Source: Eubacterium ventriosum (lineage in GTDB: Bacteria > Bacillota > Clostridia > Lachnospirales > Lachnospiraceae). From it: DNA of 64,000 nucleotides. The notes under the pieces were generated by a model that was given only the letters and a program-made list of their open reading frames with translations, ran no database searches and was not told where the DNA came from. Where the stretch lies: the NCBI RefSeq assembly GCF_025150745.1, contig NZ_CP102282.1, forward strand, positions 2,491,501 through 2,555,500, read 5' to 3'. The position numbers and the translations under genes are program-made. How positions within the stretch are numbered: the first letter of the stretch is position 1; every line of letters starts with the position of its first letter. This document shows, in pieces, positions 9,365 through 24,655 of the stretch.

Positions 9365-10798
9365 TTAAAACAGATACCTTGCCCATCCAAGCAGATGCTG
9401 TACCAAAAATATTTTTCTCTGACGTTTCTTTGTTAATTCGATTGGCTCTACATGATATGGATCATTATAAGTTCCGCCTTCTAATATCTGGCGGGACACT
9501 TTTTCATATTCCACCATGCTCTCTTCCAACTGTTTATTAATATCTTTACTGCGAATTACAAGCATCAGTTCCGTATCCAGATATGCACTTCTCATGTCCA
9601 TATTAAAGGAACCGATTACAGACAGATCATCGTCAATCAGAATACTTTTTCCGTGGTATGAATAACCGCCTTCATATTCCCAGATATTAATTCCTGTACT
9701 TAAGATTCTATTTCTGTTTTTCGCATAATCGGCAGCCCCAAATGGATTCCCATTATTCGCAACTGAATTTGTCATGATAGAAAAATCTGAAACGTTCTCT
9801 GCAATCTCCTCCCATGTATTATACATCATATCATTGCAGATAATATATGGCGTGTGGATCTTCACACGATTTTTTGCATTTTTCATCAATTCTCCCAACT
9901 GATACCACACTACCGGTTCTTTGGAACCTGTGTGAATAGGATTTGACACTAATGCAATCTTTTCTGTCTCAAAAGTTTCGTCCGTGTAATCGGTATCGCA
10001 GATTCTTTCCTTATTCTCTTCAAAATATTTCTGATAGCCGTTCTGCAGCTCTAAAACTGCGTTCTTTACAGATTTTCTATTTGCCAGTTTTTTATTGTCA
10101 TGAAAATAACCACTGTCTTCTTGTTCCCATATCGTTTCAAAATACTCTAACAACTGGTTAACTGAATTTTCTTTCTCAGGTTCATCGCAAACCACTAACA
10201 CGTCTCTGTCATAGTTCTTATGTCCCGGAAAATCACCCAGGAAATAATTGTATGTATTTCTTCCCCCAAGAATATATCTCTTTCCATCTGCAATCAAATA
10301 TTTATCATGCATTCTACCCATCATCTTCCATGGTTTCAACGGATTGGCCTTATTATACAGTTTAATTTCAACATTCTCATGGGAAGATAATCCATAGAAA
10401 TACGGATTTCCTTCCATATCAATCCAGCTCTCCATTCCATCTACTAACAGACGAATATGTACACCTCTGTCTGCCGCATCATGCAATGCTCCTAAAATCA
10501 ATTTTCCACTTTCATCGGATTGAAATGCAAAAGTAGAAAGAATAATTTCCTTTTTTGCATTCTTGATCAAACGCACTCTTTGTAAAAGCGCTTCTGGATT
10601 CTTTTCTATGATTACTGCCCGTTCTGTATTTTCACTGCATTCGTTCCATGACCCATTTTTTGTTTCTTTTTTGGTTGTATTGGACACTTCCGGCTGCTTT
10701 TTATATGCAACGCAGATTCCGAGCAATTCATAAAAAGCCACACATAAAAAAATTGCCAGTATAACAAGAAGGATTTTACATATTTTATACTTTTTCAT
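9365..10798 (-). CDS. Phospholipase D-like domain protein (two HKD motifs), membrane anchored
   Basis: A 477-residue protein with an N-terminal membrane anchor or uncleaved signal (about 7-30) and two PLD catalytic motifs: HDKYLIAD (about 163) and HGKSILIDD (about 393), each H-x-K-x4-D. The asparagine/glycine residues following both motifs (GGRN; GSFNMDMRS) are also present, so both half-sites look intact. Members include cardiolipin synthases and related phosphatidyltransferases; the single N-terminal anchor and divergent core differ from the Cls at 13014, so I leave the precise reaction open. It is the first gene of the envelope operon that encodes the two-component system, directly downstream of the shared promoter element (10831-10870). 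Confidence 0.85.
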   Translation of the reverse strand: MKKYKICKILLVILAIFLCVAFYELLGICVAYKKQPEVSNTTKKETKNGSWNECSENTERAVIIEKNPEALLQRVRLIKNAKKEIILSTFAFQSDESGKLILGALHDAADRGVHIRLLVDGMESWIDMEGNPYFYGLSSHENVEIKLYNKANPLKPWKMMGRMHDKYLIADGKRYILGGRNTYNYFLGDFPGHKNYDRDVLVVCDEPEKENSVNQLLEYFETIWEQEDSGYFHDNKKLANRKSVKNAVLELQNGYQKYFEENKERICDTDYTDETFETEKIALVSNPIHTGSKEPVVWYQLGELMKNAKNRVKIHTPYIICNDMMYNTWEEIAENVSDFSIMTNSVANNGNPFGAADYAKNRNRILSTGINIWEYEGGYSYHGKSILIDDDLSVIGSFNMDMRSAYLDTELMLVIRSKDINKQLEESMVEYEKVSRQILEGGTYNDPYHVEPIELTKKRQRKIFLVQHLLGWARYLF

Positions 10799-10830
10799 TG
10801 TACATCACCTGATTCCTTTTTATTTCATAC

Positions 10831-10870
10831 TTATACAATACAAAGTCAATCTCAATTTAACCTCAACAAA
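10831..10870 (-). promoter_or_regulatory. Promoter/operator of the PLD operon, shared with citrate synthase
   Basis: Read on the minus strand, this site contains TTGTTGAGGTTAAATTGAG, seven variable bases, then TTGTATTGTAT. The same 19-mer and 11-mer with the same spacing occur at 12851-12890 before citrate synthase. TTGAG is repeated with an 11-bp period, the usual pattern for OmpR-family regulators, and the TATTGT segment sits where a -10 box would. It lies about 33 bp upstream of the PLD start codon. Identity and geometry are observed; binding by the response regulator encoded in this operon is inferred. Confidence 0.6.
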
Positions 10871-10886
10871 ATTTATTTTTCATAAA

Positions 10887-10927
10887 AAAATATGACAGGC
10901 TTCTTTTTAAAGAAACAGTCATATTTT
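10887..10927 (-). terminator. Terminator of the citrate synthase-marR operon
   Basis: Inverted repeat AAAATATGAC / GTCATATTTT with an inner CTTCTTT / AAAGAA stem, followed on the minus strand by a T run. It is about 47 bp past the marR stop codon. Confidence 0.8.
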
Positions 10928-10973
10928 TATTCTAATATATGAAGGAGCTTTTCTTACTCCGTTGTATTAATCA

Positions 10974-11399
10974 CTATTTTATTTCTTCCATAAGCTGTCG
11001 GATTTTTCTCAATGTACACCGTGTAACTTCCAGGTCATCTTCTTGTATATTCGATATGATTTTTTCATAAGCTTCTATCATTTTTTCTTTCTGACAATTG
11101 CTTAATTCAATTGCCTTGTTCGTCAAAACAAGGTACGTTCTTTCTTTTTTTTCATCTAATTTCCAGATAATATATCCTTTATTTTCAAGACTTTTTACCA
11201 TCTTAGATGTTTCTGGAATCGATAATTTCATGTATTCTGCCACTTCTGAAAGATATACTCCTTCATGACAGTCTGATTTTTCAACACATTCCTTTATACT
11301 ATAAAGGAACAAATAATCTGTTCTTTCGACAAATTCAAATATGCTTTCAACATTAATGCTCTTTAAAAAAAACTCCTCTGCACTGGTTCCTGCTCCCAT
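10974..11399 (-). CDS. MarR-family transcriptional regulator
   Basis: A 141-residue MarR-type winged-helix protein. The HTH spans about 50-95 (VYLSEVAEYMKLSIPETSKMVKSLENKGYI), followed by the beta wing with KKERTYLVLT and a C-terminal dimerisation helix. It begins one base after the citrate synthase stop (TAA-T-ATG), so the two genes form one operon; GAGAGGAA supplies the ribosome site inside the end of the upstream gene. Cotranscription suggests it controls this operon or a linked metabolic response. The ligand and targets are not visible. A strong terminator follows. Confidence 0.88.
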   Translation of the reverse strand: MGAGTSAEEFFLKSINVESIFEFVERTDYLFLYSIKECVEKSDCHEGVYLSEVAEYMKLSIPETSKMVKSLENKGYIIWKLDEKKERTYLVLTNKAIELSNCQKEKMIEAYEKIISNIQEDDLEVTRCTLRKIRQLMEEIK

Positions 11400-11400
11400 A

Positions 11401-12747
11401 TTATCGTTCCTCTCTTTCTATATATTCTTTTTTGCTGACTAGACTCTTATATGCCGGGCGAATGATCTTATCTGTAGTTATCAATTCTTCCAGGCGATGT
11501 GCACTCCAACCAGCAATTCTTGCTATCGCAAATAATGGTGTGTACAATTCTCTTGGAATATTCAACATGTCATACACAAAACCACTATAGAAATCTATAT
11601 TAGGACTTACTCCTTTGAATATCTGACGCTGCTTTGCAATCAACTTAGGTGCAATCTTCTCAATATTGTTATAAAGGGTCATATCTTTCTCACGTCCTTT
11701 ATCCCTTGCGAGTTGTTCTACAAAGCCTTTGAACACCCTTTCTCTCGGATCGGAAATAGAATATACAGCATGTCCCATTCCATAAATAAGTCCTTTCTGA
11801 TCAAACGCCTCTTTCTTCAAAATTTTACTCAGATATGATGCAATTTCCTCTTCGTCTTCATAATCTTTCACATGACTTTTAATATCATCCATCATATTCA
11901 TTACCATCAGATTTGCACCGCCATGTTTTTTTCCTTTTAAGGATGACATTGCTGCTGAAATAACAGAATAAGTATCTGAACCTGAAGATGTTACTACCCG
12001 TGTAGTGAATGTAGAATTGTTACCACCACCATGTTCCATATGTAACAATAATGCTATATCCAGTACTCTTGCTTCCAGTTCTGTGAATTTTGTATCTGGT
12101 CTTAATAGGCGCAGGAAATTTTCAGCAATAGATAAATCTTTTTCAGGTCTATGAATATACATACTTTCGTTTTTTTCATAATGACAATAAGCATGGTATG
12201 CATATACTGCTAACATAGGAAATACTGCGATCAACTGCATACTCTGCCTTAGCACATTCGGAATTTCAAGACTTTCTTTCTCCTTATCGTAAGAGCCCAA
12301 TGTAAGAATACTTCGAGTCATAGAACCCATAATATCTGATGTAGGTGCTTTCATAATGACATCTCTGGTAAAGTTAGTCGGTAGTTCCATACAATCAGAT
12401 AGTCTTCCCTGAAATTCCATTAACTGTGTATCAGTTGGCAATTCTCCGAATAAAAGAAGATATGCTCCTTCTTCAAAGACAAACCTTTTTCCTTTACTTC
12501 CTGTTACTAAATCTTTTATATTATAACCACGATAAGATAACTCGCCATCACATGGACTCTTTACTCCATCACGATATTCAAAAGCTTTTATATCAGAAAT
12601 ATTTGTAAGCCCCGTCAACACACCTTGCCCTTTTTCATCTCGTAAGCCTCTTTTTACACCATACTCTGAATACAGATTCTTACTAATGCTATCATTTTGT
12701 TCACAAAAAATTGCTTGCTGTTTCATATAATTTTCCAAATTGCTCAT
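11401..12747 (-). CDS. gltA: Citrate synthase
   Basis: A 448-residue citrate (or 2-methylcitrate) synthase, condensing acetyl-CoA (or propionyl-CoA) with oxaloacetate. Family blocks seen: GELSYRGYNIKDL, LLLHMEHGGGNNSTFTTRVV with the catalytic His region, GMGHAVYSISDPRE (second catalytic His), and NIDFYSGFVYDMLNIP (catalytic Asp region), then RIAGWSAHRLEEL. In fermentative gut clostridia the enzyme usually feeds 2-oxoglutarate/glutamate synthesis rather than a full cycle. ATG 12747 (MSNLENY) has GGAG at 8 bases; an upstream in-frame ATG at 12765 would place that site inside the gene. The promoter shares a 40-bp element with the PLD operon, and marR follows in the same operon. Citrate versus methylcitrate specificity is undecided. 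Confidence 0.92.
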   Translation of the reverse strand: MSNLENYMKQQAIFCEQNDSISKNLYSEYGVKRGLRDEKGQGVLTGLTNISDIKAFEYRDGVKSPCDGELSYRGYNIKDLVTGSKGKRFVFEEGAYLLLFGELPTDTQLMEFQGRLSDCMELPTNFTRDVIMKAPTSDIMGSMTRSILTLGSYDKEKESLEIPNVLRQSMQLIAVFPMLAVYAYHAYCHYEKNESMYIHRPEKDLSIAENFLRLLRPDTKFTELEARVLDIALLLHMEHGGGNNSTFTTRVVTSSGSDTYSVISAAMSSLKGKKHGGANLMVMNMMDDIKSHVKDYEDEEEIASYLSKILKKEAFDQKGLIYGMGHAVYSISDPRERVFKGFVEQLARDKGREKDMTLYNNIEKIAPKLIAKQRQIFKGVSPNIDFYSGFVYDMLNIPRELYTPLFAIARIAGWSAHRLEELITTDKIIRPAYKSLVSKKEYIEREER

Positions 12748-12850
12748 TTGAATCGCTCCTTTCATTCTGTTACGAACTTACATACTATACTCAGATATTC
12801 TTGTTTCCAGAGCATTCAGCATTGTCTGTTCTTTTTCTTATTCATTAGCA

Positions 12851-12890
12851 ATACAATACAATGGAAAACTCAATTTAACCTCAACAAGGT
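12851..12890 (-). promoter_or_regulatory. Promoter/operator of citrate synthase, second copy of the shared element
   Basis: Minus-strand TTGTTGAGGTTAAATTGAG followed after seven bases by TTGTATTGTAT, in the same register as 10831-10870. It is about 103 bp upstream of the citrate synthase start. Only the seven-base spacer and the flanks differ between copies, which argues for a functional regulator site rather than chance. Confidence 0.6.
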
Positions 12891-12944
12891 TTGTTTTTTC
12901 ATCCATGCAAAATCTTCTTTGTACAACAGACTGTTAGATATAGC

Positions 12945-13003
12945 AAAAACGGCCTTTCAAAAACAGTTAACTTCTAAATCAACTGTTTTTTGAAAGGTCG
13001 TTT
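12945..13003 (-). terminator. Terminator of cardiolipin synthase gene
   Basis: Long inverted repeat with arms AAACGGCCTTTCAAAAACAGTT and AACTGTTTTTTGAAAGGTCGTTT around a 12-base loop, 10 bp past the cls stop codon. Confidence 0.8.
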
Positions 13004-13013
13004 CATCAGATTC

Positions 13014-14573
13014 TTATAGCAATCCAGCAAATAATCTCATAAATAATTGTCCCAGTCGCAAATATGCACTTCGTCCGGTTTGATATTGGTCTGTCACATC
13101 ACGACATTCTCCCATCGTTCTTATCAGATCATTTTTTATTTCCACAACTGCCTGACAATCTGCCATAAAACAGCCGTTTTCAAAATGGTGATATAAACTT
13201 CGATAATCCAGATTAATTGTTCCACAAGTTGCCATACAGTCATCTGCCACACTCATTTTTGCATGACAGAAACCAGGAGTCCACTCATAAACACGAACAC
13301 CATGTTTAACTAATCCATGATAAAAAGAACGAGTTATATTATAAATGAATTTTTTATCAGGGATACCAGGTGTGATAATTCTTACGTCTACCCCTCGCTT
13401 AGCAGCCAGACATAACGCATGCGTCATTTCATCTGTTATGATTAGATATGGAGTCATAAACCAACAATAATTTTCAGCTTTATTTATCATACTGATATAA
13501 ACTTCTTCTCCTACCTGCTCATTATCCATAGGGCTGTCTGCATAAGGTTGAACAAACCCAGTTTGCTGTGCCGCATAATCATAGTGGAAAAGGTATTTAC
13601 TAAAATCAGGATCATTAGCATCCTTAGCACTTACTGCATTCCACATTTCCAAAAATGTCACCGTAAGCGACTGAACAGCATCTCCTTCTAAACGAATACC
13701 TGTATCTTTCCACTGTCCATACGGGTGTGTGTAATTAAAATATTCGTTTGCTAGATTATATCCACCTGTAAATCCGACTTTTCCATCAATAACTGTTATT
13801 TTTCTATGATCACGATTGTTCAAAAACAGATTTAAACCTGGCATAAACGGATTGAATACACGGCAATGAATTCCTATTGCCTCCATCTTTTTCACAAAAT
13901 CTGTGTTAATAAAGCCTATAGAACCCATATCATCGTAGAATACTCTAACTTCCACACCTGCTTTTACTCGCTCTTCCAGAACATCTTGAATCTTATGCCA
14001 TGCTTCAGCGTCTTCTATCGCATGATATTCCATAAAGATAAACTTCTGTGCTTTCTCCAAATCCTTAAGCTGTGCCTCTAATCCTTTCACTGCTTCATCA
14101 AAATACACAACATCCGTATTCTGATAGATTGGATACTGCGAATTTCTTTGTATGTAACTTGCTATATTTCCTGCTTTCGGAATTGTTTCTTTTATTCTGC
14201 TCAAACACTCCTGACTGTCCGGAAGCATTGGTAACAATTTGCTATCAATTTCTGCATATCGCTCACGCATTTTATGTGTGCCACCATTCAAACCAATCAG
14301 CAAATACAGGCCTACACCCATAATTGGAAAAATTAGAATTAAGATGACCCAAGGCATTTTCATAGAGGATGTCTTATTTGATGCGTACAATCCCAAAACC
14401 AAGATCCCACTCAAAATCCTTGTAAATAAATTTATGATTTCTGCATATTCATTCAAGCGTGTTACGATAGTAATAATAAAAATCACTTCCAGAAGAATGC
14501 AGATTATGGAAAAACACAGCCGTTTTACCCCATTTTTTGTTTTTGCTTTGCCCTCTAAAGTATCTTGTTTCAT
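13014..14573 (-). CDS. cls: Cardiolipin synthase
   Basis: A 519-residue PLD-superfamily cardiolipin synthase that condenses two phosphatidylglycerol molecules to cardiolipin and glycerol at the membrane. Two N-terminal transmembrane helices (about 20-45 and 50-95) precede two catalytic motifs, HRKITVIDG (about 245) and HAKMSVADD (about 425), each followed by the conserved GG-N and GTINLDYRS segments. This is the standard bacterial ClsA/B layout and length. The alarmone synthetase gene lies 35 bp upstream and probably shares its transcript; a strong terminator follows. Substrate supply would come from PgsA (5975). Confidence 0.93.
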   Translation of the reverse strand: MKQDTLEGKAKTKNGVKRLCFSIICILLEVIFIITIVTRLNEYAEIINLFTRILSGILVLGLYASNKTSSMKMPWVILILIFPIMGVGLYLLIGLNGGTHKMRERYAEIDSKLLPMLPDSQECLSRIKETIPKAGNIASYIQRNSQYPIYQNTDVVYFDEAVKGLEAQLKDLEKAQKFIFMEYHAIEDAEAWHKIQDVLEERVKAGVEVRVFYDDMGSIGFINTDFVKKMEAIGIHCRVFNPFMPGLNLFLNNRDHRKITVIDGKVGFTGGYNLANEYFNYTHPYGQWKDTGIRLEGDAVQSLTVTFLEMWNAVSAKDANDPDFSKYLFHYDYAAQQTGFVQPYADSPMDNEQVGEEVYISMINKAENYCWFMTPYLIITDEMTHALCLAAKRGVDVRIITPGIPDKKFIYNITRSFYHGLVKHGVRVYEWTPGFCHAKMSVADDCMATCGTINLDYRSLYHHFENGCFMADCQAVVEIKNDLIRTMGECRDVTDQYQTGRSAYLRLGQLFMRLFAGLL

Positions 14574-14608
14574 ATATCTTCCACCTTCCTACTTGCTCAG
14601 TTTTCTCC

Positions 14609-15289
14609 CTAAATTTCGTGGAACATACCAATTTTGTCTTTTATTCTCTGCATTTCATTATCTGCTTCAATGATAGCTCTTGCAGAATGAAGTAATTCTT
14701 CACTTATCTCATCATAGCCAGGCATTTCTTCAATTCCTTTTTTATAGCGAAGTTGATGTTCCAATGTTGCCCAGAAATCCATACCATTGGTTCGAATCTG
14801 TAATTCTACACGCATAGGTGTTTTACCCTTAGCAAAAAAAACTGGTATTTCAACAATCATATGATAGCTTCTATAACCATTCGATTTTGGATTTTTTATA
14901 TAATCTTTTATTTCAATAACTTTAATATCATCCTGTTGGGTAATCAAATCTGATATCATATAAATATCGTCAATAAACGCACAAACTATTCTAACGCCTG
15001 CTACATCATTGAGATATGTCTGTATATTTTCTGTTGTAAATTCATATCCCATCTTCTGCAGTTTATCGTAAATACTATTGGGCTGCTTAATTCTTGTTTT
15101 TATAAAAGAAATAGGATTTCGATTGTTCTCAACTGAAAATTCATCATCCAAAACCTCAAGTTTAGTTTGTATCTCCCGAATAGCACAACGATACATCATC
15201 ATTAAATTATAAAATTTTGTAGCATTATTTAAAAACTGTAGTGATTCCGGACTGTTCATCCTGAGTTTTTTTACTTCATCTTTTGTCAT
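14609..15289 (-). CDS. relQ: Small alarmone synthetase, GTP pyrophosphokinase family
   Basis: A 226-residue single-domain (p)ppGpp synthetase with no hydrolase or TGS/ACT domains, the layout of RelQ/YjbM. Seen: the ATP/GTP site region RIKQPNSIYDKLQ, DVAGVRIVCAFIDDIY (metal-binding Asp), SNGYRSYHMIVEIP and VELQIRTNGMDFWATLEHQLRYKKG, all synthetase signatures. It would make ppGpp from GTP or GDP and ATP under envelope or starvation stress, acting in the cytosol as a tetramer. ATG 15289 has AAGGAAAG upstream. It lies upstream of cls with only 35 bp between, linking stringent signalling to membrane lipid synthesis by position; that link is inference. Confidence 0.9.
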   Translation of the reverse strand: MTKDEVKKLRMNSPESLQFLNNATKFYNLMMMYRCAIREIQTKLEVLDDEFSVENNRNPISFIKTRIKQPNSIYDKLQKMGYEFTTENIQTYLNDVAGVRIVCAFIDDIYMISDLITQQDDIKVIEIKDYIKNPKSNGYRSYHMIVEIPVFFAKGKTPMRVELQIRTNGMDFWATLEHQLRYKKGIEEMPGYDEISEELLHSARAIIEADNEMQRIKDKIGMFHEI

Positions 15290-15425
15290 GGAACTTTCCT
15301 TTCTACCTCATCACTGATTTCAAAACATTATTTATTTTGATAGTTGATTCGTTCTCCTTGAATTACTGGATAACAAATCATTTTATCACTATCCAGATTT
15401 TCTATATGCATATCTACTGCACTGA

Positions 15426-16203
15426 TCTGATGGTTTTCATAAGTATTGTAATAATACCATCCTTATGGCAGACAGTGGTTACGAAAGTTTTAATACCTTT
15501 GCACCCCTGGTCCGGAAGAGAATGTATTTCGTTATCCGCATGAAGGATATCAACAGTAATGGTATCCTTTCCGCTTATGATTTGCCTGACAGCAAATTCG
15601 ATACTCATATAAGAACAACACTTACCAGACGCCATACGAAAGAAACACTGGGGAATCATAACACCTATACCATACTTCAGCCTTCTACCGATTTTGATTT
15701 TCTTGATGAAAACTGCATGTATTACGATATTGAATTCCGTATTGTACGTATTCGCCTTGATAATGGAACCTATATCTGTATTGCCACCAATCTTTCAGAA
15801 GAAGAATTTCCTCTGGAAGAAATCAATAAACTTTACCGGATGCGCTGGAGCGAGGAAACAAGCTTCCGTGAACTCAAATACACCATCGGTCTGATTAACT
15901 GACACAGCAGCAAGTATGATGGAATCCTTCAGGAAATCAATGCCCGTATGATTCTGTATAATTTCTGTGAATTAGTGACTTCTCACGCTGTGGTAAAAAC
16001 ATCTAAAAATAACCAAACACGTCTATAAAATTAATTTCGCCATCGCAGTAAACATATGCAGGGCATATCTCAAACACGGTGGTAACGAAACAGAGACCAT
16101 GCTTCTCATACAAAAGTATCTGACACCTGTCAGGTACAATCGAAAATATCCTATCTACCTCCGTCCAAAGAGAAATAGGGATTTCATGCATCGGGTTGCA
16201 TAA
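15426..16203 (+). pseudogene. IS4-family transposase remnant, N-terminus missing
   Basis: The frame is open from 15426 and reads MADSGYESFN (the first catalytic Asp region) and LYRMRWSEETSFRELKYTIG, the Y-(2)-R-(3)-E-(6)-K signature of IS4-type DDE transposases. A TGA at 15900-15902 interrupts it (GLIN, stop, HSSKYDGILQEINARM), and a frame change near 16020 is needed to reach KINFAIAVNICRAYLKHGG and the end HRVA at 16203. A stop precedes 15426 in the same frame, and the N-terminal half is absent. It therefore has a truncation, a nonsense codon and a frameshift. Terminal inverted repeats were not identified. Confidence 0.85.
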
Positions 16204-16256
16204 AACTCGTTACCATTATACTCCATTATGAGGCAGATATGCAATCTGTCTTTTCG

Positions 16257-16424
16257 TCATACACAAAAATATCCTACGGCAAATACTCTATCAGCTTTTA
16301 TCCTAAAATCATAAATATCAAATTCAGTTAATTTTTTGCTAAACGAATCAATATAATAATATTTTCCAGGAATGAATTTCACGCCTGATAAATCTATCTC
16401 TTTTACCTTATAATCTTTACCCAT
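16257..16424 (-). CDS. Small hypothetical protein of the partition cassette
   Basis: A 55-residue protein (MGKDYKVKEIDLSG to VFAVGYFCV) not recognised as any family. ATG 16424 has GAGG 8 bases upstream. A TGTTATAAT extended -10 sequence lies at 16462-16470 on the same strand, so it may have its own promoter after the terminator of the coiled-coil gene. The sequence is mixed polar and aromatic with no membrane segment. It sits between the IS4 remnant and the ParM cassette. It could be part of the decayed element or a spurious frame. Confidence 0.45.
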   Translation of the reverse strand: MGKDYKVKEIDLSGVKFIPGKYYYIDSFSKKLTEFDIYDFRIKADRVFAVGYFCV

Positions 16425-16492
16425 CTTTTCTACCTCACAAAATCCGACCATATCAACAATTATTATAACATGTCTACCACTGGCCATGCACT

Positions 16493-16528
16493 TGAAAAAA
16501 AAGGACGCAGAATCTCTCCCACGCCCTT
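16493..16528 (-). terminator. Terminator after the coiled-coil gene
   Basis: Minus strand AAGGGCG / GCGTCCTT stem (one G-U pair) followed by a run of eight T, directly after the stop codon at 16533. Confidence 0.75.
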
Positions 16529-16532
16529 ACAT

Positions 16533-17453
16533 CTATCTGGATTTATCTTCTCTTACCTTCGCTGTTTCCTTATGTGCTGCCTCCTGCTTCACCTCATCCA
16601 CACTTCTAGCCTCAAATGCATCTGCATTATACTGATACTCCTGCGGCTCAGCGACCATCGGTGAATATACAATCTCTGCATCTACTCGCTCAGCTTCTGC
16701 CCTCTCTGGCTCTGTCTGTTCCTGCTTCTTCTCATTCTCCATATGCCTTTCCTTATCAAGCTGCACATTCATAGCCAGATTATCCAGCTTGTCAATAGAT
16801 GCATCCAAATGAAGTTCCATTGATACAAGCATCTTTTTCACTGCTTTCATCGGAGCAAGTACTGCCTTTGTAATGGGATGTTTCTGCTTTTTCTGAGAAT
16901 AATCCACCTCCGACTTGTCAGCAAAAGTACGGAATGCATTGGCTGCTGTCTGCCCGGCTTCACGAAATCCTTTTGCAAGAAGTGCTGTCTTTTCTATATC
17001 CTTATCCGTGGTCTTGATTGCACCTCTTACATTCTCTCGGATATCAAGAAGCCTTTTCTTAATTCCTAAGAACTCCGACAGCCTGTATAATACAGCTCTT
17101 CCCTTTGCCTTTGCTTCATCAACTATGCTCTTTGCTGTAGATTTGACCTGTGCTTTCACTTCCAATACCTGCGACTTTATCTGCTCACATCTGGCATTAA
17201 GTTGCTCCTGTGCTTCCGACAATGCCTTTATAGCATTATTGACAAGTGTATCTTCCTGCATTTCTTTGATCTGATTCTGCATATTGGTGAGTTCTTCCGT
17301 CATGGAATCAATCTTTTTCTCCAGTCCATCCACATAGCTGCATATCTCAAATACATCGTTTGCCTGCTCTTTCATGGCATTTTTCTTTAGTAATTCGAGA
17401 AGTTCCCTTATAACATCCTCATTGGTAAGTGTTTTTCCTGCTTCCATATCCAT
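16533..17453 (-). CDS. Coiled-coil protein of the partition cassette (DUF6674-like)
   Basis: A 306-residue, highly helical, charged protein. Long heptad-like stretches run from about 45 to 180 (DGLEKKIDSMTEELTNMQNQ; then QLNARCEQIKSQVLEVKAQV), and a disordered Glu-rich tail follows (about 235-306). There are no membrane segments. I recall similar proteins next to ParM-type genes on clostridial integrative elements, annotated DUF6674, but cannot confirm this here. ATG 17453 follows TGGAGGAAACAGA. It is 60 bp after the ParM-SpoVG gene, probably cotranscribed, and ends at a terminator. A role as filament- or DNA-associated partner of the actin-like protein is only inference. Confidence 0.6.
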   Translation of the reverse strand: MDMEAGKTLTNEDVIRELLELLKKNAMKEQANDVFEICSYVDGLEKKIDSMTEELTNMQNQIKEMQEDTLVNNAIKALSEAQEQLNARCEQIKSQVLEVKAQVKSTAKSIVDEAKAKGRAVLYRLSEFLGIKKRLLDIRENVRGAIKTTDKDIEKTALLAKGFREAGQTAANAFRTFADKSEVDYSQKKQKHPITKAVLAPMKAVKKMLVSMELHLDASIDKLDNLAMNVQLDKERHMENEKKQEQTEPERAEAERVDAEIVYSPMVAEPQEYQYNADAFEARSVDEVKQEAAHKETAKVREDKSR

Positions 17454-17513
17454 TCTGTTTCCTCCATTCTGTAAGTGGGGCAGCCATGGCCGCCCCTGTA
17501 CCCTGATTACTAA

Positions 17514-18959
17514 TTATCGAAAGGGTGTAGCCTCTTTGTCCTTCTCTTTATCGGGATTGCCATGATTTTTCTCGGCACTCTCCCTCGCCTTTTCGTTGCT
17601 CTTATCCTTTGCTTTCTCATATTCCGAGATAATCTCATTATAGAGTTTTTCCCTGAAATCCTTTGTAACCGGATAGCAAACATCCTGATAGATTGGCTTG
17701 CCCTGCTCATCTACCTGCTTTGTCTTATAAGATGGCATTGATACAAAGATTTTCTCTTTGCCCTGTACGATATTGATGTTATTTACAATGAAACTGTTTT
17801 CAAAATAAATGCGGGCAAGTCCCTTGATGTTACTGCCTTCCCTCTCATAAGGTGTCACAGTTACGGAAAACTCCGGCATTTCAAAGGAACCTTTGGTTCC
17901 TTGTGTTCTGTCCTGCATCTGTGTCTCCTCTTTCTCCGGTTCTTTGATTCTTGCATAGGCATCAAGAATATTGGTATAGAGTTCCTCACGAAACTCTGCT
18001 GTGATAGGATTGCACACATCCTTATAGATCACGCCATTGCTTTCATCACGCTCATTGGAGCGGTATCTTGGCATTGATACGAAAAGTTCTCCCTTAGCAT
18101 TTGCCTTTACATCAAGGTTATAGGAAATGTTCTTGGCATCGTGACTACCAAAATTTTTCATCACAACTGCCCCGCCTCCGACAAATACAATCGGTGTAGT
18201 CTTTAAGTTATACCCAAACTCACGGATTGAGTTATATACCTTATCAACAAAATCCTCTATCTCTGCCTTAATAATGGCAAAGTATTCATCATCAATATCT
18301 GACCTGCCATATCGCATGATGTTCTGTATCTCTGACTCGTCTACCTCTCCGTTAAGCTGTCTTACACACTGCTCATTGATAGAACGCATACAGGTAATAA
18401 GACCTTTTGGAATCGTCACACACTTTGATTCATCCGGTGACTTGTTGATAACCGGCATAATGTCGATTGTCCAGCTTCCAATATCTACTATCAGCGTTTT
18501 CTTTACCATTGTAGGAATCTTGTCCACTACTGCTGCATAACACTGAGGGAATACTGCCACATCATCAATTTCAATATGATATGGCTCATTCTCATATTTG
18601 AAGCTTACACGCTTATTCTTTGTCAGATACTTGATAAAATCATTCTTCTCTGCACCAAACCTCGTAAGCGGAAGTCCTACAGCAAGGAATACCTTTGCCT
18701 CTGCAAGACCTCTTCTTTTAAGTTCCTTAGCAACTGCTGCAAGTGTGAGAAGATAAAAGCTGTCATCTTCGACCTTGGTATCCTTTACTTCCTGCCTCAC
18801 AGTTCCAACCTTATAGAACTTTCCTTCATACTCAAGTACATCGCCAAACAATGCTGGAGTTGTTGTAATCTCCTTAACACCTGTGACAAATACCTGAGAG
18901 ATTGTTTTCATCATTGACCAGCCATGATCAATGCCGATTACTTCTAACTTGTTATTCAT
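17514..18959 (-). CDS. ParM/StbA actin-like ATPase fused to SpoVG modules
   Basis: A 481-residue chimera. Residues 1 to about 288 are a ParM/StbA-type actin-like ATPase: phosphate 1 GIDHGWSMMK, phosphate 2 LIVDIGSWTIDI, adenosine motif IVFVGGGAVVM. Such proteins form filaments that segregate plasmids. At about 285-290 (DVKANAKGELFVSMP) it passes into a SpoVG half-module (about 290-340), then a complete SpoVG module (about 360-450: VTVTPYEREGSNIKG, FVSMPSYKT, DVCYPVTKDFREKLY), ending in a charged tail. SpoVG is a nucleic-acid-binding regulator. ATG 18959 has AAAGGAG about 11 bases upstream. The first module lacks its N-terminal strands, which suggests a deletion fused two neighbouring genes. 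Whether the product is functional is unknown. Confidence 0.78.
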   Translation of the reverse strand: MNNKLEVIGIDHGWSMMKTISQVFVTGVKEITTTPALFGDVLEYEGKFYKVGTVRQEVKDTKVEDDSFYLLTLAAVAKELKRRGLAEAKVFLAVGLPLTRFGAEKNDFIKYLTKNKRVSFKYENEPYHIEIDDVAVFPQCYAAVVDKIPTMVKKTLIVDIGSWTIDIMPVINKSPDESKCVTIPKGLITCMRSINEQCVRQLNGEVDESEIQNIMRYGRSDIDDEYFAIIKAEIEDFVDKVYNSIREFGYNLKTTPIVFVGGGAVVMKNFGSHDAKNISYNLDVKANAKGELFVSMPRYRSNERDESNGVIYKDVCNPITAEFREELYTNILDAYARIKEPEKEETQMQDRTQGTKGSFEMPEFSVTVTPYEREGSNIKGLARIYFENSFIVNNINIVQGKEKIFVSMPSYKTKQVDEQGKPIYQDVCYPVTKDFREKLYNEIISEYEKAKDKSNEKARESAEKNHGNPDKEKDKEATPFR

Positions 18960-19017
18960 GTTCCTTTCACTCCTTTTCTGTATTGTCTGCATTATTGTTT
19001 TGCAAAATTTCATATAA

Positions 19018-19197
19018 TTACCCACACCCTTTCAAGTGCTCAGTTTTGTCAGATGCAGGAATATCATCAGACCTGCCATAAAAATGCTTTCTCATTAATT
19101 CCTCATACAGTTCATCACTCTCTGCCTTAACTTTCATAAGACAGTAGAGAACCACTGTACTAATAATGATTACGAACCAAATTAACACTTTGCCCAT
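19018..19197 (-). CDS. Small membrane peptide, first gene of the ParM operon
   Basis: A 59-residue ORF: a hydrophobic N-terminal helix (about 4-21, VLIWFVIIISTVVLYCL) followed by a charged cytoplasmic tail rich in Glu/Lys. The start ATG 19197 is preceded by GAGAGGAG with 7-base spacing, a strong site that supports translation. It lies 58 bp before the ParM-SpoVG start and directly after the second hairpin of the structured leader. No family is recognised. It could anchor a cassette component at the membrane or act as a leader peptide. Confidence 0.6.
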   Translation of the reverse strand: MGKVLIWFVIIISTVVLYCLMKVKAESDELYEELMRKHFYGRSDDIPASDKTEHLKGCG

Positions 19198-19222
19198 TCA
19201 TCCACTCCTCTCAAATAAAAAG

Positions 19223-19478
19223 AGGACCAAACCAGCTGATGGAGTATTCCATCTCAAGTGCTAATTTAGTCCTCACTAAATGTTTTTGATATAAAATTGT
19301 ACCTAATCTAAGCACACAGATTCACTCTCAGACTGATTGTGGACATCTGTGATACTGACTTGGATTTTCGGTTTAATATTGCAGCGCTGCCCTATCTTTA
19401 CCGCTAAAATGGTATAAAAATAAGGACTAAATTAGGCATAACCCCTTGATTTTACTGGGTTTCATCTAACTTGGTCCT
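19223..19478 (-). ncRNA. Structured leader with two related terminator-like hairpins
   Basis: Minus-strand hairpin A (19478-19423) pairs AGGACCAAGTTAG with CTAATTTAGTCCT, has an inner AACCC/GGGTT stem and is followed by TTATTTTTA. Hairpin B (19273-19223) pairs AGGACTAAATTAGC with GCTGGTTTGGTCCT through three G-U pairs, holds an inner GATGGA/TCCATC hairpin and is followed by CTTTTTATTT. The two are inverted copies of each other, so arms can also pair across (13 bp CTAATTTAGTCCT/AGGACTAAATTAG). Between them lie the palindrome GCAGCGCTGC and CACAGAT/ATCTGTG. A TATAAT (19484-19479) would start RNA at hairpin A. It precedes the 59-aa gene. An attenuator is likely; a miniature inverted-repeat element is the alternative. 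Confidence 0.55.
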
Positions 19479-19486
19479 ATTATAAC

Positions 19487-19609
19487 TCAAACACCGTTTT
19501 CCCATCTACTTACAGCCTGTGGTGTTACACCAATATGTAATGCCAATTCTTCCTGTGTCAAACCAATCTGCTTTCTAATTATTTTTATATTGTTTCCTAT
19601 TAAATTCAT
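19487..19609 (-). pseudogene. Truncated XRE-type helix-turn-helix regulator
   Basis: A 40-codon frame carrying only the Cro/CI HTH: IRKQIGLTQEELALHIGVTP then AVSRWENGV and a stop. Complete regulators of this family continue for at least 20-60 more residues, so this is a 3'-truncated gene; the break falls next to the structured leader. Probably the former regulator of the partition cassette or of a lost neighbour. Confidence 0.65.
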
Positions 19610-19756
19610 ATTTTATCACTACTGTCTGACAGCTTTCTCCTCTTAATTTTTCGGTACCGTGACTAAAATATAACACTGAAAATTTATAATATCAAACAAT
19701 ACGATATTTATGAAAAACAATTAAGCATTGATTTTAACATATGAAATGATTTGCTG

Positions 19757-20251
19757 TTATAAATTTTCCAAATAAAGATTTGCTTCTTCTCTTGATTTAA
19801 AAATCACAACTTCTTTATCTTTGTATTTTTCAAGAAGCTGATATATTTCAGGGAGACTTTCATCTGAAAATTCCTGAATCCATTGTTTGAATTCTCCCTC
19901 AAATGTTTCCTCAGTTTCCACCCAAGGCATATCTTCTCTTTTTGTACCTATTCTTGATTTTACGCTCTCTAAGCATACTTTTGTCGGCAAATCGAATAGT
20001 ATTATCAGGTCACATTCTTTCATTCTGACTTCCAAAGTTCTTTGATAGTTTCCATCGATTATCCATTGACTTTTAACAAGTATTTCCTTTAATTTTTTGT
20101 CAAATTCTTCTGATGAAATTGTAGTTCTGTCCGGTTTATGTTTTATCATATCTAAGTAAAACAATGGCAAATCTGTTTTGTCTCGTAATTTTCTTGCAAA
20201 GGTGCTTTTCCCTGAACCGGGACTGCCAATTATCATTATTTTGGTGTGCAT
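19757..20251 (-). CDS. P-loop nucleotide kinase-like protein (FlaR/topology modulation type)
   Basis: A 164-residue P-loop protein. Walker A is at about 9-16 (GSPGSGKST); LPLFYLDMIKHKP and WIIDGNYQRTL follow, the pattern of the adenylate-kinase-like family often labelled DNA topology modulation protein FlaR. LIILFDLPTKVCL supplies the beta-strand aspartate. The natural substrate of this family is not established. ATG 20251 follows GGGAGATTCAAA. It lies 23 bp after a GNAT gene, with which it forms part of a row of small minus-strand genes (19757-23126). Confidence 0.8.
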   Translation of the reverse strand: MHTKIMIIGSPGSGKSTFARKLRDKTDLPLFYLDMIKHKPDRTTISSEEFDKKLKEILVKSQWIIDGNYQRTLEVRMKECDLIILFDLPTKVCLESVKSRIGTKREDMPWVETEETFEGEFKQWIQEFSDESLPEIYQLLEKYKDKEVVIFKSREEANLYLENL

Positions 20252-20274
20252 TTTGAATCTCCCTAAAATCTAAT

Positions 20275-20703
20275 TTATTTTTTATATATTATTTTTCTCA
20301 GTGCCGGTCCACAATACTGATGCGGCACAAGTTTGAATCCCTGCTTTATGTAAAATTGTTCTTTACCTGCCTCTGCTAACAATTGTACGCTCACTCTACT
20401 TCCATCATACATATTTCTTTCAATATAATTTAAAATAGAGTTTATTATTGCCGTTCCTATTTTCTTGCCCTGATATTCAGGTCTTACCACAATATCTACA
20501 ATGGTGAAATATATGCCATCGCCCACAACTCTTCCCATACCAATTGCATTTTCATTTTCATTATCATAAATCACAATTGAGTAATAAGATTTTTTGAGTG
20601 CTTTCTGTGCCTGTACCTTGCTCCAGTTATTCCATCCAACTGATTCTCTAAGGTTGTAATATGTTTCATAATCCAATTGATTTTCTTTTATTGTATATTT
20701 CAT
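20275..20703 (-). CDS. GNAT family N-acetyltransferase
   Basis: A 142-residue acetyltransferase. The acetyl-CoA binding motif A is clear: IVDIVVRPEYQGKKIGTAII, with the Q/R-x-x-G-x-G/A loop, followed by motif B with LLAEAGKEQFYIKQGFKLVP. The N-terminus (MKYTIKENQLDYETYYNLRESVGW) matches the small GNAT subgroup containing YhhY/PaiA-like proteins. Substrate unknown; a small amine or antibiotic is possible but nothing here decides. ATG 20703 follows GGAG with proper spacing. Confidence 0.88.
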   Translation of the reverse strand: MKYTIKENQLDYETYYNLRESVGWNNWSKVQAQKALKKSYYSIVIYDNENENAIGMGRVVGDGIYFTIVDIVVRPEYQGKKIGTAIINSILNYIERNMYDGSRVSVQLLAEAGKEQFYIKQGFKLVPHQYCGPALRKIIYKK

Positions 20704-20719
20704 AAATGCTCCAATTTTT

Positions 20720-21298
20720 CTATTTACCAGCTAAAATATCTGCAAATTTATTTTCAAGGAAAAATCTATAATCCGGTGCCAACAAACTATTAGCAAACTC
20801 ATCTCGAATAGTTTTCTGTAACCATTCTTTTCTCTTTTTTATAAATTCATCATATCGGCAAATTGTTATTAAGCCTTCCTGTTCAGCCTTTATTATTTCA
20901 TAATATGCATCTGAAACATATTCGCAATGTTCCACTTTTGTTGGTCGATCTGAAATATATGCATTAGGAATTTGAATATTTAACTCTTTGTATGTTGATA
21001 TACTGTCGCATGAATATATATATCCTTTAACTCCACTATACGTTTCTTTCAATGCATTTGGATAATATTCTTCCAGGCACAACCTACCATCTTTATCAAA
21101 TCCATACGGTCCCCATTTATGCCAGAAGCCCTCAAACTTAAAATGCTTTTCCTTACAAAATTTTTCAATAGCATTGCTTAAATACACCAATACATTCTCT
21201 CTTTTGTCTGAAAAGTAAATTAAAGGAATATTGTGATTTGATATATTTGGTTTTAAAATTTTTATATTTTTCGTCTGTGATGCATGAAAAAAAGTCAT
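20720..21298 (-). CDS. Uncharacterised protein in the small-gene cluster
   Basis: A 192-residue soluble protein that I do not recognise. The N-terminal region reads MTFFHASQTKNIKILKPN and LIYFSDKRENVLVYLS, an FHxS...LKP...IYFSD pattern reminiscent of small ADP-ribosyltransferase-like folds in which a ligand is held by a histidine-loop, but catalytic residues cannot be assigned. The middle is rich in Tyr and Trp (FEGFWHKWGPYGFD; EEYYPNA), and the end is helical. ATG 21298 has GGAGGAAC upstream. It lies between Nudix and GNAT genes, all co-directional with short gaps. Confidence 0.6.
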   Translation of the reverse strand: MTFFHASQTKNIKILKPNISNHNIPLIYFSDKRENVLVYLSNAIEKFCKEKHFKFEGFWHKWGPYGFDKDGRLCLEEYYPNALKETYSGVKGYIYSCDSISTYKELNIQIPNAYISDRPTKVEHCEYVSDAYYEIIKAEQEGLITICRYDEFIKKRKEWLQKTIRDEFANSLLAPDYRFFLENKFADILAGK

Positions 21299-21328
21299 TG
21301 TTCCTCCGTTTTTATTATTTTCTCTTAC

Positions 21329-21820
21329 CTACAAATTATATTCCCTAATGGCTTCCAACGTTCTCCTTGCTGCCAGTTCATTCTCATCTATTTTTTCAAA
21401 AGTTTCCTTATCCACCCACTTGTAATCTATTGTTTCACCCTCCTGCAAAACAACCGAGTTTTTGTCGAAATCAGACACACATAAATATATAATGTAAAGG
21501 GAATGATGACCGTCATGTACAACTCGTGTAATTTCCTTCATTTTATCAGCGTTCAAGCCTGTTTCTTCTTTCAATTCCCTAATTGCTGCTTCTAATCCGT
21601 TTTCGCCTTGCAAAGCAGAGCCTCCAGCTGTAACTTCCCATTCACCACCATGATGTTTGCGTAAATCACGTTGCATTAACAAATATGAACCGTCTGTATG
21701 TTTTACTATTACTTCGCTAACCAAATGATAAATACCATCCGGGATTGTTTCTCCTCTAACTAAAGTCGTATTTTCTATTTTATTAAATTTTTTATCATAT
21801 GCATCCCATAATTCGGCCAT
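21329..21820 (-). CDS. NUDIX hydrolase
   Basis: A 163-residue Nudix protein with the complete box G-x5-E-x7-R-E-U-x-E-E-x-G-U, visible as GSALQGE then AAIRELKEETGL. Upstream, VIVKHTDGSYLLMQRDLRKHHGGEWEVTAGG resembles isopentenyl-diphosphate isomerase-like Nudix hydrolases, and the N-terminal MAELWDAYDKKF fits this subgroup. It would hydrolyse a nucleoside or other diphosphate with Mg2+; the substrate is not determined. ATG 21820 has AAGGAG at 7 bases; the upstream in-frame start at 21838 would bury it. Confidence 0.9.
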   Translation of the reverse strand: MAELWDAYDKKFNKIENTTLVRGETIPDGIYHLVSEVIVKHTDGSYLLMQRDLRKHHGGEWEVTAGGSALQGENGLEAAIRELKEETGLNADKMKEITRVVHDGHHSLYIIYLCVSDFDKNSVVLQEGETIDYKWVDKETFEKIDENELAARRTLEAIREYNL

Positions 21821-21893
21821 AATAATCTCCTTACACAATACATCTTATCTCTGCACATGTTTCCATATATTTGATGTACTAACAAAATATAAT

Positions 21894-23126
21894 CTATATA
21901 TATTCAATTGGCAAAGCTATCAGGTTTTCTCTTAAATATGTTTTTTTATCTATCAGACAAAGAATAATTCCCATACCTCTTTTTTTATCAGGTATCTTGT
22001 CAAGGACCTGATTTGTGGCTCCCATAATAGCCTTTGGATTACCTGACATTTTTATTTCAACAGGATATAATACTCCATTCTCTTCGATAATTAAATCTAT
22101 TTCATTTTCTCCTGTTTTTCTTTTGTCCTTACCTCTATAGTAATAAATATTGAAACGATAATCTTTACCTTCATTAGAATACGTTTTTAAGATTTCAGAA
22201 ATAACAAATGTTTCAAACATATTTCCGGCTACTGCCGAATTCTTTAGTGCATCAGCTGTCAACCATCTTGTCAGATAACAGGCAAGTCCTGTGTCCCTAA
22301 AATATATTTTTGGTGTTTTTATAGCTCTGTTTAATGCGCTTGCACTATATGGCTGTAACAAATAAACTATCCCTGTTCTTTCTAAAATTGATATCCATTT
22401 TTTTACAGTCATTTCACTTATACCTATGTCACTTGCAATATTTGCATAATTAAGTAGCTCACCTGTTCGGGCTGCAACAGCCGTTAAAAATTTTGTAAAT
22501 GTAATACTGTCAGTAGCAATCAACTCATTTATGTCTCTTTCTAAATATGTTGATACATAAGATGAATAAAACTCCTGCCAATCTCGATCTATATCGTATA
22601 ATTCAGGATATGAACCCTTATGAATAATTTCCCATACGTTATCATATTTCTTTAATTCTGTTTCACGCTCTTTCAAATAATCCTCTGTAGGCACAAAATG
22701 TTTATTAAATTTTATCTTTTTAATTTCACGCATGGACAAACCTGAAAGTTCAAAAATTGATACTCTGCCAGCCAGTGATTCGCTAATTCCCTTCATAAGT
22801 TCTAATTTTTGAGAACCCGACAATATGAACTGTCCTCTTTCATCAGATTCATCTACTATTTGTTTAATCTCTTCCAGAATTGCGCCCTCTTTCTGTACTT
22901 CATCAATAAAGAGAGGACATGGGTTATTCAAAAAGAATAATTTAGGTTCTTCTTTAGCTTGTATTCTAGTTAATCTATCGTCAAAATTAGTTCTATTGTA
23001 TTCTGAAAATTCATGTTTAATTAATGTTGATTTTCCAACCTGTCTTGCACCAACGACTAAAGTACATTTACTTTTTTGTACTCTATCTTTAAGAATTGGT
23101 GAAATGTTTCTTTCAATATATGACAT
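21894..23126 (-). CDS. AAA ATPase with DUF4143 domain
   Basis: A 410-residue ATPase of the AAA/DUF4143 type common in bacteria and archaea. Walker A is GARQVGKSTL (about 26-35), Walker B LFIDEVQKEG (about 72), followed by sensor FILSGSQ. The C-terminal DUF4143 region (about 190-340) contains LTAVAARTGELLNYANIASDIGIS, a winged-helix-like segment, and GNMFETFVISEILK with EIDLIIEE, a PD-(D/E)xK-like nuclease core of this family. The biological role is not established. GGAGG sits 6 bases from ATG 23126. A truncated relative of the Walker A part lies upstream at 23271. Confidence 0.88.
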   Translation of the reverse strand: MSYIERNISPILKDRVQKSKCTLVVGARQVGKSTLIKHEFSEYNRTNFDDRLTRIQAKEEPKLFFLNNPCPLFIDEVQKEGAILEEIKQIVDESDERGQFILSGSQKLELMKGISESLAGRVSIFELSGLSMREIKKIKFNKHFVPTEDYLKERETELKKYDNVWEIIHKGSYPELYDIDRDWQEFYSSYVSTYLERDINELIATDSITFTKFLTAVAARTGELLNYANIASDIGISEMTVKKWISILERTGIVYLLQPYSASALNRAIKTPKIYFRDTGLACYLTRWLTADALKNSAVAGNMFETFVISEILKTYSNEGKDYRFNIYYYRGKDKRKTGENEIDLIIEENGVLYPVEIKMSGNPKAIMGATNQVLDKIPDKKRGMGIILCLIDKKTYLRENLIALPIEYI

Positions 23127-23270
23127 TTTGATCCTCCATATAAACAATATTTAAGATTATTATAAACATTCTTCAAATAATATTCAAGCGACTAATCCAT
23201 AATAAGAATATGGATTAGTCGCTTTTGTAATAATAATGTATGTTTTCGATTAATATAAATTAATTTTCTT

Positions 23271-23375
23271 TTACACATTCCTTATATTCATCTTATCTTT
23301 CAATTTATTTATAAGAACTGTCTTTCCTACACCTCTTAATCCACTAAATATAACTGATTGAATAGGTATATTCAT
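23271..23375 (-). pseudogene. Truncated AAA ATPase N-terminus
   Basis: A 34-codon frame, MNIPIQSVIFSGLRGVGKTV then LINKLKDKMNIRNV and stop. The IFSGLRGVGKTVLI segment is the Walker A of a different ATPase subfamily from the one at 21894. Nothing of Walker B or later domains follows, so this is a gene remnant. Confidence 0.65.
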
Positions 23376-23854
23376 ATTTACATTATATCAAATTTTTATG
23401 TTCTATACACTAAATACATGTGTATTATCGTAGAAATATTCCTATACGATACTATAACTTTTTATTTTCACTTTATTAGTATGTATTTTTTCACAATTAT
23501 AACAATTTTTTATTATTCTTTTTTCTTTTTTTCCGTTGTTGTGGTCAAGCTTTTCTGTCATATTTAATGATTTCCGGTGTTCCCCCAATTTTTAAATGGG
23601 GGAATAATTTTGAGCATTTGTTGCTTGATTTCAATTTCATTTTTTCCTATTTGGAGAATTCTTTTTATAAAGTTGGGGAGTATTTTTGTTCCCCAACTTT
23701 ATAATCAGCAATGACTCATAGCTGAAATTCTCACTTTTCGAATTTCTTCATTATAATATTCTTCCAGTGTCTGTGTCTTCGCCACTCCAAATTTCTTAAT
23801 GTCATTACCGGAGAGAACTGGCTTGTGCTGCCTCCCTCCCAGATTTCTTCCTTT
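23376..23854. other. AT-rich intergenic stretch with two strong hairpins
   Basis: Very T-rich on the plus strand. Two perfect hairpins are present: TTCCCCCA/TGGGGGAA (23580-23604) and ATAAAGTTGGGGA/TCCCCAACTTTAT (23667-23702), the latter a 13-bp stem suitable as a terminator for the AraC gene downstream on the minus strand. Between 23705 and 23854 the minus strand has a short open stretch (KKFGVAKTQTLEEYYNEEIR) without a start codon, perhaps a gene remnant. No further gene seen. Confidence 0.6.
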
Positions 23855-24655
23855 TCATGACAACATCTCTTTCACACAAGTACTTCGATAATCACTTGGT
23901 GATATTTTATATTTTTCTTTAAATACTCGGTTAAACGTTCTCTGACTTTCAAATCCACTATCCAGACAAATATTTGTAATAGAATCACTCGTATTTTCCA
24001 AACGATGGCATGCATAGTTCAGCCTTGCATCGTTAAGATATTGATTAAAGTTTCTATGGAATGTCTTGGAAAAGAGTCTGGATAAAACATATTTGCCCAC
24101 GCCCAGGTCTTTTGCCATCTCTTCTAACGAAAACTTCTTCTTGAAATTTGCTGATATATAGGAAACTGTCTGGTAAATAAGATCATTGCTCCCAACACTG
24201 CTCTTTTCTACCAAATTTAATTTTCCTATGCAGCGTGCCAACACAATTTGAAGATATGCCTGTGCAACAGTAATATCCGACTGTTCTGTCTCTAAAATTG
24301 CATTTATAACCCTATATACCTCCGGTTCAACCTTTTCCGCTTTGATGATTGGGTATTCAGGAGCCATGGATTGCATGATATCTGCAAATTTGTCTATCGA
24401 AAATGGCGATGCAATCAGATAAGTCGCTTTATTTACACCGGGTGTCAGTACCTGATAGTGATGAATAACATCTGGAAATACAAAGCCTATATCTCCTTTT
24501 TCCATATGGTATAGTTCCTGTCCGACACCAAGTTCTAATGATCCACTTGTTACACAAACGATCTCCAGTGCATTATGAAGATGTGGTTCAATATGTTTTG
24601 ACTTCCTATTTATTGCTATAATCTCCTCTTTTGTGTCAACATATTTTAACTGCAT
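23855..24655 (-). CDS. AraC-family regulator with cupin sensor domain
   Basis: A 266-residue regulator. The N-terminal cupin (about 1-110) has HIEPHLHNALEIVCVTSGSLELGVG and FVFPDVIHHYQ, the usual ligand-binding fold; the C-terminal pair of AraC HTHs (about 165-262) shows FSLEEMAKDLGVGKYVLSRLF and ITNICLDSGFESQRTFNRVFKEKYKISPSDYR. ATG 24655 follows GGGGAG; longer frames have no site. It is transcribed away from a tiny plus-strand ORF at 24765 and lies downstream of the lactose permease. Control of the lacZ-permease cluster or of a neighbouring sugar gene is plausible but not shown. Confidence 0.88.
   Translation of the reverse strand: MQLKYVDTKEEIIAINRKSKHIEPHLHNALEIVCVTSGSLELGVGQELYHMEKGDIGFVFPDVIHHYQVLTPGVNKATYLIASPFSIDKFADIMQSMAPEYPIIKAEKVEPEVYRVINAILETEQSDITVAQAYLQIVLARCIGKLNLVEKSSVGSNDLIYQTVSYISANFKKKFSLEEMAKDLGVGKYVLSRLFSKTFHRNFNQYLNDARLNYACHRLENTSDSITNICLDSGFESQRTFNRVFKEKYKISPSDYRSTCVKEMLS

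Follow-up and report, generated by a model that had tools for sequence, protein, structure and literature searches.

How a single gene of Eubacterium ventriosum came to join a ParM-type actin to SpoVG, two protein families with separate genes in related elements, is the question raised by this locus. It was analysed in a window of 64,000 nucleotides (contig NZ_CP102282.1, positions 2,491,501 to 2,555,500), which is numbered here from its first letter. A reading of the sequence alone had offered two answers: a filament-forming ATPase covalently tied to a nucleic acid-binding module as a new design for partition or DNA tethering, or a neutral relic of an in-frame deletion.

The fused frame and its intact counterparts

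The gene occupies positions 17514-18959 of the minus strand as a single frame of 481 codons, open from an ATG at 18959 to a stop at 17514. The sequence AAGGAGTGAAAGGAAC lies directly ahead of this ATG, which is a more probable start than the one placed by the ORF finder at 19025 (503 codons). The unbroken course from a ParM-type actin through a partial into a full SpoVG module, as first described from the sequence, was confirmed by the ORF itself, by Pfam and by blastn. In Pfam, ALP_N matches residues 9-141 with 48.7 bits (cut-off 26.3), MreB-like_C matches residues 157-269 with 26.1 bits, slightly below its cut-off of 27.8, and SpoVG matches in two stretches, the better of which (364-449) covers profile positions 4-82 of 82, so that the second module is complete. 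The SpoVG-derived part begins at residue 43 of the 229 residues of the tandem SpoVG of relatives (KGELFVSMP), and the first module is therefore a half module without its initial 42 residues. SpoVG similarity is hence present after the ParM part, and proteins of this ParM family do not ordinarily contain such a segment. The features of the locus are as follows:

16495-19508, no strand assigned: whole remnant of an integrative conjugative element (ICE), about 3.0 kb, delimited by similarity to ICE relatives
17514-18959, minus strand: fusion gene of 481 codons, with ParM-type actin (1-288), SpoVG half module (about 289-345), linker, full SpoVG module (about 361-465) and charged tail
18097-18959, minus strand: parM-derived part, shortened at its end by 18 of 306 codons and thereby deprived of the C-terminal helix (helix 302-315 of P0015); 95.6-96.0% by blastn to parM of genomes G265, G148 and G169
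17514-18096, minus strand: part derived from tandem spoVG, without its first 42 codons; 95% identical to the tandem SpoVG of G265 across 193 residues
18095-18098, minus strand: deletion junction at codon 288; the parM side ends in AAATGC and the spoVG side starts with TAAGGGAG
16533-17453, minus strand: DUF6674 gene (Pfam PF20379), which follows spoVG in intact ICEs
16501-16528, minus strand: hairpin resembling a terminator, placed where the remnant operon ends, from a consensus scan only, which found 4 sites where 2.3 were expected
18976-19508, minus strand: leader of parM and end of the ICE, including an ORF of 59 aa (19018-19197); similar to Roseburia faecis M72 and to a stub in Lachnospira eligens ATCC 27750

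In blastn, window positions 18097-18976 correspond to parM of the ICEs in G265, G148 and G169 (95.6-96.0%), while positions 16521-18095 correspond to their spoVG and the next gene (91.7-93.5%). This places the break at 18096/18097, in frame and at codon 288, within the stretch of about 18090-18110 where it had been suspected. At the break the window reads AAATGC on the parM side and TAAGGGAG on the spoVG side, compared with AAATGCAAGAGG and GATAAGGGAG or GACAAGGGAG in relatives, which leaves essentially no microhomology at the junction. A deletion driven by homology was ruled out because almost no sequence is common to both sides of the break.

The ICEs of relatives carry parM and tandem spoVG as two distinct genes, encoded on the same strand of one element. 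The arrangement expected by the sequence-only reading was found in all 13 same-contig pairs that were compiled by choice of the author among the matches listed for 397 family genomes: parM comes first, on the same strand, and 29,347-44,874 bp separate it from spoVG. In the three closest elements the gap measures 34,696 (G169), 41,623 (G148) and 41,718 bp (G265); it is approximately 37.0 kb in R. faecis M72, as calculated by hand from the coordinates, and two additional separate pairs show gaps of about 35.0 kb (G110:C57) and about 35.8 kb (G405:C62, from a genome of the same genus). In G265, parM (3092099-3093070) and tandem spoVG (3049800-3050489) lie on one strand at opposite ends of the ICE core. 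The same two sides, 29-45 kb apart in relatives, adjoin in the window, which supports the proposed origin by in-frame deletion. Compared with its closest relatives, the window ICE thus lacks about 35-42 kb from its middle. The corresponding interval of G265 encodes a MobA/VirD2-like relaxase, a T4SS coupling protein, a VirB4-type P-loop ATPase, an NlpC/P60 protein and a large helicase/methylase. A gene of 149 aa directly after parM in G265 is likewise absent from the window; it has no Pfam match and, from its position, we take it to encode a ParR adaptor-like protein (parR-like). The genome of the window also carries a second, related ICE (G000:C1:375827-418929), one of the 13 compiled pairs, with separate parM (418042, 54% identical) and tandem spoVG (375827, 57%) about 41.7 kb apart, and a third ParM-like gene at 2854785, close to the contig end.

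Very probably, then, the locus is an ICE deprived of about 35-42 kb, in which ParM residues 1-288 became joined to SpoVG residues 43-229, the fused protein likely being a neutral by-product. A single illegitimate deletion would have joined the two genes, with a chance of one in three that such a join falls in frame. Gut ICEs are known to be reduced to remnants by large deletions (PMC6907783). The ICE of that study similarly lost its transfer module by one large deletion; it belongs to a different ICE family, and in the window the deletion also produces an in-frame gene fusion. Of the papers searched, none has ParM and SpoVG together as whole words.

The remnant and the occurrence of its junction

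The ICE-like sequence of the window is bounded by positions 16495-16521 and 19504-19508. Only the latter was recognised as an ICE end, and no second end was recognised where similarity ceases at 16495-16521. ICE remnants that keep both attachment sites are called cis-mobilizable (CIME). Window positions 18097-19504 are 97.4% identical to R. faecis M72, in which a large serine recombinase follows DUF6674. No such recombinase is detectable in the remnant, since blastn of window positions 14501-24500 against the R. faecis recombinase region matches only 16521-18095.

The left flank of the remnant (10403-16272) is shared with L. eligens ATCC 27750 at 98.8% over 5.9 kb, and 133 bp beyond this shared flank ATCC 27750 carries a stub of 402 bp that corresponds to window positions 19105-19508 (95%). 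Past the stub, its sequence has no match to the window beyond 19508, and this mismatch of the right flanks leaves unsupported the idea that remnant and stub are one insertion. The record FDAARGOS_1570 agrees with ATCC 27750 both in the 13% of the remnant that it matches and in the genes surrounding this piece. Judged by these matches, the genome of the window is probably that of L. eligens or of a close relative. By eye, the ICE end within window positions 19490-19520 reads CAAACACC, followed by NNTTTCCCA in the window, in ATCC 27750 and in R. faecis, a possible target core. The end seems to lie within an HTH-type gene in the window and ATCC 27750 and a metA-like gene in R. faecis. Farther left, a 145-aa ORF at 15465-15902, at whose matching place ATCC 27750 has an annotated 711-bp transposase, is probably a broken insertion sequence.

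With the fusion as query, an end-to-end alignment was obtained in its own genome only, both among the 397 family genomes (104 with some match) and among 392 genomes of the order (21 with a match at a stricter limit). The two parts never occurred together in the 49 loci taken from named genomes, a DNA search across 23 genomes of the genus revealed no second copy of the remnant, no junction DNA was found in viral contigs and a phage collection gave no match. Two plasmid records match just 13% of the remnant, namely the ICE end. Among the best 120 of 268 database proteins, however, the exact junction occurs in three entries comprising five sequences, all of them metagenome proteins: P0002 (one sequence), P0003 (three) and P0004 (one). 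The junction is therefore real and extends beyond one strain. When recurrent identical fusions are weighed against separate genes in relatives, as the sequence-only reading had suggested, the outcome falls mostly on the side of deletion (0 of 49 named loci; 1 of 397 genomes, its own), yet these three entries, found among the best 120 of 268, show that the junction does recur. Among the matches listed, its five sequences stand against 3,863, 3,826 and 2,627 members of intact clusters.

An assembly artefact might be considered in view of the many chimera-like joins among metagenome proteins of this ICE family. It is, however, hardly credible and was rejected: the genome of the window is one contig of 2,856,089 bases and 99.97% complete, and the junction is common to three entries from other sources.

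P0002, P0003 and P0004 are diverged alleles in which every frame is open. The motif ETQMQ in the linker is common to P0001, P0002 and P0003 and absent from 128 other linker copies among 274 proteins, so that a single event is the likely origin of all three. P0004 has the same junction and lacks both ETQMQ and 65 residues of the actin domain. The leader of P0002 and P0003 (MFKWLFKKKG) is unlike that of the window, and differing leaders ahead of the same junction require either recombination or repeated deletion. The same junction in diverged alleles and behind another leader points to a fusion that has either persisted or undergone recombination.

The two different leaders would also agree with a still mobile mini-element, about 5 kb in size, in which both ICE ends and a serine recombinase are retained in some strains, and one same-junction contig of 4,963 bp is near the summed length of leader, fusion, DUF6674 and recombinase. 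This explanation is improbable in view of the window, where positions 14501-24500 do not resemble the recombinase region of R. faecis and only one ICE end was recognised.

Fold, constraint and dispensability of the fused protein

In the model of an intact ParM (P0015), residues 302-315 form a C-terminal helix, of which G304, Y305, E306, L308 and A309 are kept in at least 90% of 41 intact ParMs. This helix of the ICE ParM subfamily is absent from the fusion, which continues with SpoVG residues after position 288. The fusion model has a mean pLDDT of 64.1: much of the actin part lies between 70 and 95 (first 40 residues, 42-60), residues 284-304 and 307-360 fall below 50, and the second SpoVG module reaches only moderate values, with 408-431 below 50. 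The half module is accordingly predicted to be disordered. Foldseek matched the fusion model to ParM, Alp12 and Alp7A, with no SpoVG entry among the best 50 matches by E-value; the solved structures nearest by fold are 7x3h, 4apw (Alp12) and 7x54. By sequence, the nearest PDB entry of the intact P0015 is Cbc-ParM 7x54, and Alp12 4apw is also near. Of the two halves whose integrity was to be seen in a structure prediction, the actin part and, with moderate confidence, the second SpoVG module appear intact, whereas the C-terminal helix and the half module do not.

Residues 1-283 of the fusion thus resemble the ParM/StbA family in both actin-like fold and family matches, whereas the C-terminal helix and the gene after parM, both found in intact ICEs, are missing at the fusion locus. 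In ParMRC (type II) partition, ParR adjoins parM; here the 149-aa gene, presumably parR-like by position, is absent. The second SpoVG module of the fusion matches Pfam SpoVG, and the protein of relatives matches solved SpoVG (2i9z, 2ia9, 2i9x), whereas the first module lacks 42 N-terminal residues and is predicted to be disordered. Partition genes as such are known on ICEs from SXT/R391 (PMC4489591).

The dN/dS ratios of the fused parts are close to those of the intact genes (parM, 0.036 compared with 0.040; spoVG, 0.036 compared with 0.038), but they are uninformative on the time after the fusion, as only two private codons in the parM part and four in the spoVG part are available and some relatives are duplicate copies of one place. 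Most of the divergence behind these ratios likely predates the deletion. For the DUF6674 copy of the window, a ratio of 0.24 compared with 0.16, with 12 nonsynonymous and 2 synonymous changes among 14 private codons, suggests relaxed constraint. We read the remnant as a young relic whose last gene, DUF6674, is already drifting, with counts too few for proof on the fusion itself.

A selected protein, in which an actin-like filament is tied directly to a nucleic acid-binding SpoVG module and needs no ParR, would account for the open frame, the intact second SpoVG module, the low dN/dS and the exact junction in three diverged entries among the best 120 of 268 proteins. It is nevertheless quite unlikely and was set aside as the main reading. 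The fusion is rare, its own genome standing alone among the 397 of the family; the conserved helix and the neighbouring parR-like gene are gone, and the half module is predicted to be disordered; P0004, one of the three same-junction entries, lacks 65 actin residues; and ParM is fused in the same manner to many unrelated ICE genes. In addition, the near relative L. eligens ATCC 27750 keeps only the 402-bp stub, which, from the comparison of the two loci, makes the fusion gene dispensable. The proposal of a new partition or tethering design is not supported in view of the loss of the parR-like partner and of the helix, the predicted disorder of the half module and the relative without the gene; the neutral relic is the likely reading, given the rarity, the lost helix and neighbour, and the stub.

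According to the deletion model, the actin part would still fold without its C-terminal helix, followed by a disordered half module and a folding second SpoVG module. The protein would have no partition job, because the parR-like partner and the transfer machinery are gone, and the locus would be decaying. A striking fusion of two families in a complete genome can hence be explained by comparison with an intact element, which is a warning against reading such fusions as new designs.

Further joins and the distribution of break points

At least eight further proteins (P0005-P0012) are ParM-SpoVG fusions, with seven junctions that differ from the present one. Among the matches listed, ParM is also joined in frame to the coupling protein, the VirB4-type ATPase, parR-like, pilin-like and other ICE genes, and SpoVG to various other ICE genes. 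Database protein lists reveal in-frame joins only.

Among the matches listed, codon 254 accounts for five of 33 parM junctions and codons 233/234 for another five; codons 288 and 291 have four each, and at each position the partners differ. In 100,000 trials of uniform draws over codons 233-299, at least five junctions fell at one codon in 0.8%, and a sum of 16 for the top four was reached in none. The junctions derive from the best 120 of 1,501 proteins by score (7,996 candidates scored), and the 33 break points were collapsed by hand; since a score-ranked list leaves break points before about codon 233 largely unseen, the clustering is a lead and not a result. Tentatively, the parM end may have preferred deletion end points, and a site-preferring process may repeatedly strip the ICE and yield in-frame chimeras, the codon 288 fusion among them, some of which spread. 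If true, one common gut ICE family yields many in-frame deletion fusions with seemingly recurring break points, making gut ICE decay directly testable. The core of a serine recombinase was dropped as a cause, as the shared dinucleotides, inspected by eye, differ between clusters.

In P0147 and P0149-P0232, the tail of spoVG continues the frame of an NlpC/P60-type, CD1107-like ICE gene, and the single context NDTS|EFREELYT is found in at least 83 proteins. One of them, P0207, stands for 64 contigs (among the best 120 of 195), and none of the 397 family genomes matches across this junction. An isolate-type genome, G127, contains a decayed second copy in which parM, judged by eye from the ORFs, is cut at about codon 200.
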